Origin: Thalassotalea sp.
Lineage (GTDB): Bacteria > Pseudomonadota > Gammaproteobacteria > Enterobacterales > Alteromonadaceae
Length of the DNA: 32,178 nucleotides
Direction: 5' to 3'
Assembly: GCA_029249355.1 (NCBI GenBank)
Contig: JAQWHO010000092.1
Coordinates: 1-32,178 of the forward strand
In this document: positions 1,100-1,551 of the stretch, in pieces
Position numbering within the stretch: the stretch's first letter is position 1
Layout of the letters: every line of letters starts with the position of its first letter
Notes under the pieces: model-generated
Seen by the model: only the letters and a program-made list of their open reading frames with translations
Databases searched by the model: none
Told to the model about the DNA's origin: nothing
Position numbers and translations under genes: made by a program

Positions 1100-1215
1100 T
1101 GAAGCTCCATTTGAGTGTTTTTATGTGAACAGAATATTACCTTTAAATCATTTGTCCAGAGCTTATTTCAACCGGTTTTTGAAAGGTTAGCTTTTGCATG
1201 TTAAGTAACCAAACA

Positions 1216-1519
1216 AGGGGCTGTTGATCTTTCGCGGTAAATTTTGTTCGAGATAAAATCGTTTTACTCTTTGTAGCCTAGTCATTCTAAGCAAATACTA
1301 CTCAACAAAGAGTAAAACGATTTTAGCCGAATCTTTCGGACAGCGTTTGTTAGTCATTTTTACGGCGTTGCCCCACAAGGATGTGGGGTAAGGTGACTTT
1401 GCAGGAGCATAAAGTCTTTATCACCTTTTTATGTGGGACAACCACATTACAAAAGTTCTGCCTTGTATAAATACCCAAAAAACTGCTGCAAAAACAATCT
1501 CGAAAGATCAACAGCCCCT
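1216..1519. mobile_element. MITE-like non-autonomous element with perfect 19-bp terminal inverted repeats
   Basis: Left end aggggctgttgatctttcg (1216-1234) is the exact reverse complement of right end cgaaagatcaacagcccct (1501-1519). No ORF inside; several nested hairpins. No obvious target-site duplication. Confidence 0.75.
1254..1325. repeat. Perfect 21-bp inverted repeat (30-nt loop) inside the MITE-like element
   Basis: taaaatcgttttactctttgt (1254-1274) vs acaaagagtaaaacgatttta (1305-1325), exact reverse complements. Confidence 0.9.
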
Positions 1520-1551
1520 AAATATTCAGTTCTTTTTTATAACTTTAAAAT

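Follow-up and report, generated by a model that had tools for sequence, protein, structure and literature searches.

A probable IS5-type MITE of Thalassotalea with a folded core that recurs behind different ends in other Gammaproteobacteria

Results

The window, by which we mean the whole 32,178-nucleotide stretch of Thalassotalea sp. DNA that was analyzed, contains at 1217-1518 a 302-bp element with perfect TIRs (18/18; GGGGCTGTTGATCTTTCG), which we consider, with a probability of roughly 0.93, to be an IS5-type MITE. An element of this type is by itself ordinary; the surprise is its conserved folded core, which keeps a near-constant length and is found with different ends. The features of the window copy are as follows.

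1215..1216, no strand: left target dinucleotide, decayed (AA, where the family has TA in 46/48 copies)
1217..1518, plus strand: probable IS5-type MITE, non-autonomous, a copy of the long subfamily, 302 bp
1217..1234, plus strand: left TIR, GGGGCTGTTGATCTTTCG, 18 bp
1242..1349, plus strand: structured module 1, conserved; 93.7 bits with covariance model R1, against 130-140 bits for siblings
1254..1274, plus strand: left arm of a perfect 21-bp inverted repeat, with CTCTTTGT at 1267-1274
1305..1325, plus strand: right arm of the same repeat, sequence as in siblings
1327..1339, plus strand: ccgaa/ttcgg, overlapping the end of the module 1 stem and the central hairpin
1368..1417, plus strand: 50-bp insert with a ccccaca/tgtgggg hairpin, absent from the 264-bp siblings
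1431..1447, plus strand: atgtgg/ccacat hairpin, covarying in the family (one pair is GC in 20 copies and AU in 19)
1501..1518, minus strand: right TIR, 18/18
1519..1520, no strand: right target dinucleotide TA, in TAR context

A preliminary description of this DNA had proposed an element of ~304 bp bounded by 19-bp TIRs at 1216 and 1519. The outer pair does match at 19/19 positions, but comparison with other copies sets the boundary one base further in at each end and reduces the TIR to 18 bp. In the family the arrangement is YTA-element-TAR, with TA at each end in 46-47 of 48 copies, whereas the window copy has CAA before it and TAA after it. No TA duplication is visible at this copy because of a T-to-A change at 1215, and because the left TA has thereby become AA, the pair 1216/1519, which is target DNA, was read as part of a 19-bp outer repeat. 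The remark that no convincing target-site duplication could be seen thus holds for this copy and fails for the family. No ORF of at least 100 aa lies inside the element, as had been described, and every internal repeat named earlier was recovered at its coordinates. Folding of the element gives z-scores of -9.1 for one strand and -11.7 for the other; the nested hairpins are present, though they belong for the most part to a conserved family fold and are not incidental palindromes.

The element lies between genes for an RND permease and a peptidase, both on the minus strand, and the coordinates confirm its position upstream of the peptidase, 117 bp from the ATG (1099), and downstream of the RND permease, 33 bp from the stop (1552). 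This proximity to the peptidase start is what a native intergenic regulatory sequence of that gene would show; such an origin is contradicted by two congeners, G001 and G002, which hold the orthologous gene pair without the element, as well as by the dispersed, multicopy nature of the element, and we give it practically no credence. Divergence of the intergenic DNA in the congeners blurs the junction, and the empty site is resolved only to several bases, with no clean TA there; in G001 the shared stretch AAGTAACC.AAC reaches the insertion point. Full or partial matches to the element DNA number 20 in the host genome, which excludes a chance origin of the repeats, and more occur in relatives, including 36 covariance-model matches in G002. 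At up to 3 mismatches the TIR was found 11+11 times in the host, against 0 for a reversed-pattern control. Eight complete TIR-bounded host copies were aligned, the window copy and seven siblings of 262-265 bp each. Together, the multiple copies and the congeners' element-free sites uphold the earlier MITE interpretation. Three internally deleted derivatives in G002 (L135, L136 and L137, of 160, 141 and 224 bp, respectively) keep both TIRs and TA flanks.

Among 53 copies for which both neighboring genes could be called, 35 lie between tandem, 10 between convergent and 8 between divergent genes; none of the 53 is inside an ORF, and no orientation bias was seen. Of 55 neighboring gene 3' ends at the L192-L310 loci and the host copies, 9 abut the element at distance 0. 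YTAR includes stop codons, and G is the first base of the element; from the distances we infer that an element inserted at a TAA or TAG stop of this kind would restore TAG, its G completing the codon after TA. In Vibrio penaeicida (L278:2793-3637), a 153-aa ORF is flanked on one side by a partial MITE end and on the other by a complete MITE of 264 bp; named by eye, the ORF is dCMP-deaminase-like, and it is possibly a gene carried between MITE ends.

Public genomes were scanned for the TIR plus its TA. The matches were mostly MITEs, commonly of 262-329 bp, in Colwellia, Thalassotalea, Shewanella, Vibrio, Pseudoalteromonas, Motilimonas and other genera, and the same scan returned a few TA-flanked elements of 867-898 bp whose ends are identical to the TIR or nearly so. 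Both TIRs of one such element, from a symbiont MAG (L296), are identical to GGGGCTGTTGATCTTTCG of the window, and an element of Alteromonas oceani (L225) has this sequence at one end; L300 also belongs to the 867-898-bp set, as does a full-length element with a broken frame in Vibrio metschnikovii (L199). A further full-length element, L189, came from a scan of viral contigs. The three proteins scanned (L189, L225 and L296) all match PF13340 and PF01609, and that of L189 is typed as NCBIfam NF033580 transpos_IS5_3 with 278.6 bits against a cut-off of 110. Autonomous elements sharing the TIR, whose existence the preliminary description had asked about, are thus IS5-family elements, and through them the MITE, for which no family could be named at that stage, is now assigned to IS5. 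A transposase of the IS630/Tc1 type also targets TA, and the TA duplication would be compatible with mobilization by such an enzyme; however, no DDE_3 match was found in the host or congeners, and the IS5-family enzymes encoded by those TIR-matched full-length elements whose proteins were scanned contradict this alternative, which we regard as highly improbable. Closer to the host, a genome of the same family (G016, among 60 relatives) has seven near-identical IS5 copies (E ~1e-121), and those examined have TIRs 1-2 mismatches from that of the window.

We found no intact partner transposase in the host assembly, whose 423 contigs amount to 84% completeness, and nothing in G001 and G002. The only partner trace in the host assembly is a 41-aa IS5 transposase remnant beside a decayed TIR, ctaGAACCTGTTGATCTTTTA (L319; G000:C399:7898-8020). 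Two sets of candidates were rejected: the PF01609 transposases of 16 relatives (30 loci), whose TIR flanks do not match, and unpaired TIR matches in G002, G046 and G006, which are MITEs, short derivatives or solo ends and not IS ends. The phage collection gave no match. As far as an assembly of 84% completeness can show, the host element looks stranded without its partner. The suggestion of recent mobility is accordingly only partly sustained: the TIRs are intact, but the left TA has decayed and the host, G001 and G002 yielded no intact partner.

Copies in Vibrio, Shewanella, Pseudoalteromonas, Motilimonas and the Colwelliaceae are typically 264 bp long and have a common covarying fold. In an alignment of 42 distinct copies of 262-266 bp (A1), this fold comprises 68 pairs, 38 of which show double changes. 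Double-change cells numbered 279, compared with 62.7 in shuffles that ignore relatedness among copies, and 0/500 shuffles reached the observed values; in slid controls, which retain relatedness, displacing the partners by 1-3 columns lowered the paired cells from 95.7% to 36-45%. The clearest stems are stem 2 (double changes in 11/18 pairs) and stem 4 (8/8), and the central hairpin covaries in the family as GAATCC-nnn-GGAC and GAACCC-nnn-GGGC.

The fold extends beyond this marine group. Covariance model R1, which describes the 119-nt first module and was given a short calibration, matched 21/229 gammaproteobacterial genomes drawn across the class, one per species. In distant families the inspected loci were mostly TIR-bounded and about 262-265 bp long, and their ends differ: several families have GGGCCTGTTAACAC or a sequence close to it, and the ends are GGAACCTCTGATTGGAACG in L354, GAGCCTATCCGTGAATAA in L357 and GGGTTTGTGAAATAATAACT in L359, a shorter element. 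With the TIRs excluded, distant and marine cores are ~46% identical; when the two groups were folded separately on a joint sequence alignment, 72 of ~92 pairs were identical, against a mean of 0.15 for a rotated control. We conclude that a conserved fold is very probably common to these families. One genome, G181, holds a folded MITE with the end GGGCCTGTTAACACTA together with ~807-bp elements that have a PF13340 transposase and the end GGGCGTGTTAACACTA, and a remnant in G272 carries GGGCCTGTTAACACTGATAG. In the second half of several elements, R1 has a further match on the opposite strand (L002, 3e-10; L141, 4e-11), which suggests that the element may consist of two inverted copies of one module; a sequence-only test of the halves was weak, and the support comes from the covariance model only.

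Two further observations concern the range of cores. A 265-bp host copy (L037; G000:C126:12475-12739) has the local TIR and an interior nearer the distant-family type, which suggests that both core types coexist in one genome. In G106, L358 and L368 are short, TIR-bounded, AT-rich hairpin elements with GAGACCTTTGCAT-like ends and a weak R1 match; their ends differ, most core motifs are absent, and these matches may be false positives, the elements perhaps being an unrelated MITE.

The window copy departs from its siblings in two respects. The left arm reads TAAAATCGTTTTAATCGCGGCGAGTAGTGTGTAGCC in the siblings and TAAAATCGTTTTACTCTTTGTAGCC in the window, where CTCTTTGT, standing in place of the siblings' ATCGCGGCGAGTAGTGTG-type sequence, is the complement of this copy's own right arm ACAAAGAG. 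By this comparison, the ancestral element lacked the perfect 21-bp inverted repeat, and the hairpin looks like a product of template switching; the replacement of the left arm shows the same pattern as the quasi-palindrome template switch (PMC8794818). The lower R1 score of the window copy would follow from this event, since it removed the left strand of stem 4. The second departure is the 50-bp insert, which occurs at 14 places in G002 and one in the host, and at none in G001 or G006; it therefore defines a long subfamily that spread.

Discussion

Our findings point to a MITE that would be mobilized in trans by an IS5-family transposase. Such an enzyme would recognize the 18-bp TIRs, insert the element at YTAR and duplicate the TA, and the insertion between the RND permease and peptidase genes would then have taken place after the split from the two sequenced congeners, unless these lost the element. 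IS5-family insertion sequences (PF13340 and PF01609; NF033580 transpos_IS5_3) share with it the 18-bp TIR and the duplication of TA at YTAR, whereas the element of the window is 302 bp long and without a transposase.

The cause that keeps the fold is a separate matter. One explanation is that one strand of the core is read into a functional RNA with a regulatory or terminator role, and both the strong, RNA-like covariation and the very low folding energy are in keeping with it. A one-strand RNA should tolerate G-U more than A-C, yet the two mismatches are about equally common (34/26 and 34/35, for pairs predicted from both strands), and for this reason such an RNA is not favored. In addition, copies between tandem genes show no preferred orientation with respect to these genes (20 versus 15), no promoter- or terminator-like site is predicted inside the window copy, and no Rfam family exceeded its gathering score, the only matches lying far below threshold and on hairpins; we consider a functional RNA unlikely. 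The strand symmetry of the mismatches fits better with a cause at the DNA level, and the fold would then be kept because selection favors DNA that forms hairpins, because the template switches between arms, or for both reasons.

Template switching competes with selection as the cause of the fold, not with the identity of the element as a MITE. In its strict form it holds that the palindromes are functionless and only look selected, one arm being rewritten as the complement of the other during replication. This would explain the left arm of the window copy, whose sequence has given way to the complement of the right arm in that copy, as well as double changes with symmetric G-U and A-C intermediates, and template switching has been reported to create and maintain hairpins (PMC8794818). 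Against it, unpaired columns are conserved as well as paired ones (0.84 versus 0.85 within the family and 0.65 versus 0.68 across it), including the loop and junction motifs GTnATTC, GGCG, CAAC, GCGTT and GCCTTG, which template switching alone does not predict, and the length stays near 264 bp even at 46% identity. Single changes outnumber double changes at short distances and double changes dominate later, as expected if a second step compensates the first, although repair of mismatched palindromes would give the same result and the pattern fits either. We regard functionless palindromes as a real possibility that falls short of even odds. We give similar odds to a further, tentative reading, in which the core of ~264 bp is a self-standing structured DNA element, built of two modules, that has come to be combined with TIRs from several IS5 elements across the Gammaproteobacteria. 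DNA-level selection, whether for transposition, for replication-coupled mobility or for host-protein binding, would hold the fold and length of this core, and the element may then be a hyperparasite that has a functional architecture of its own and is not a decayed insertion sequence.

Other intergenic palindromic repeats with conserved hairpins, such as ERIC, Correia, RUP and BOX, some of which target TA, differ from the window element in length and ends according to their general descriptions; ERIC, for example, is an element of about 127 bp with the ERIC consensus. Bacterial MITEs, reviewed in PMC10969869 and represented by QMITE1 and QMITE2 of Coxiella (PMC5896051), are likewise short, non-coding, dispersed, TIR-bounded and strongly folding; QMITE1 is ~400 bp and QMITE2 ~190 bp long, with 7-9-bp direct repeats (PMC5896051). 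What distinguishes the present element from bacterial MITEs in general is an interior fold conserved in many families, at near-constant length and with several TIRs. In the open-access literature, we found no paper naming this element family.

MITEs are usually regarded as remnants of insertion sequences whose interiors drift freely. Here, the interior retains its fold and length while its sequence drops to ~46% identity and the TIRs change. Two questions thereby become accessible to experiment: can a non-autonomous element possess its own functional nucleic-acid structure, and can template switching without selection yield conservation of DNA structure? For both, the covariance model, together with the paired IS5 elements, provides ready material.
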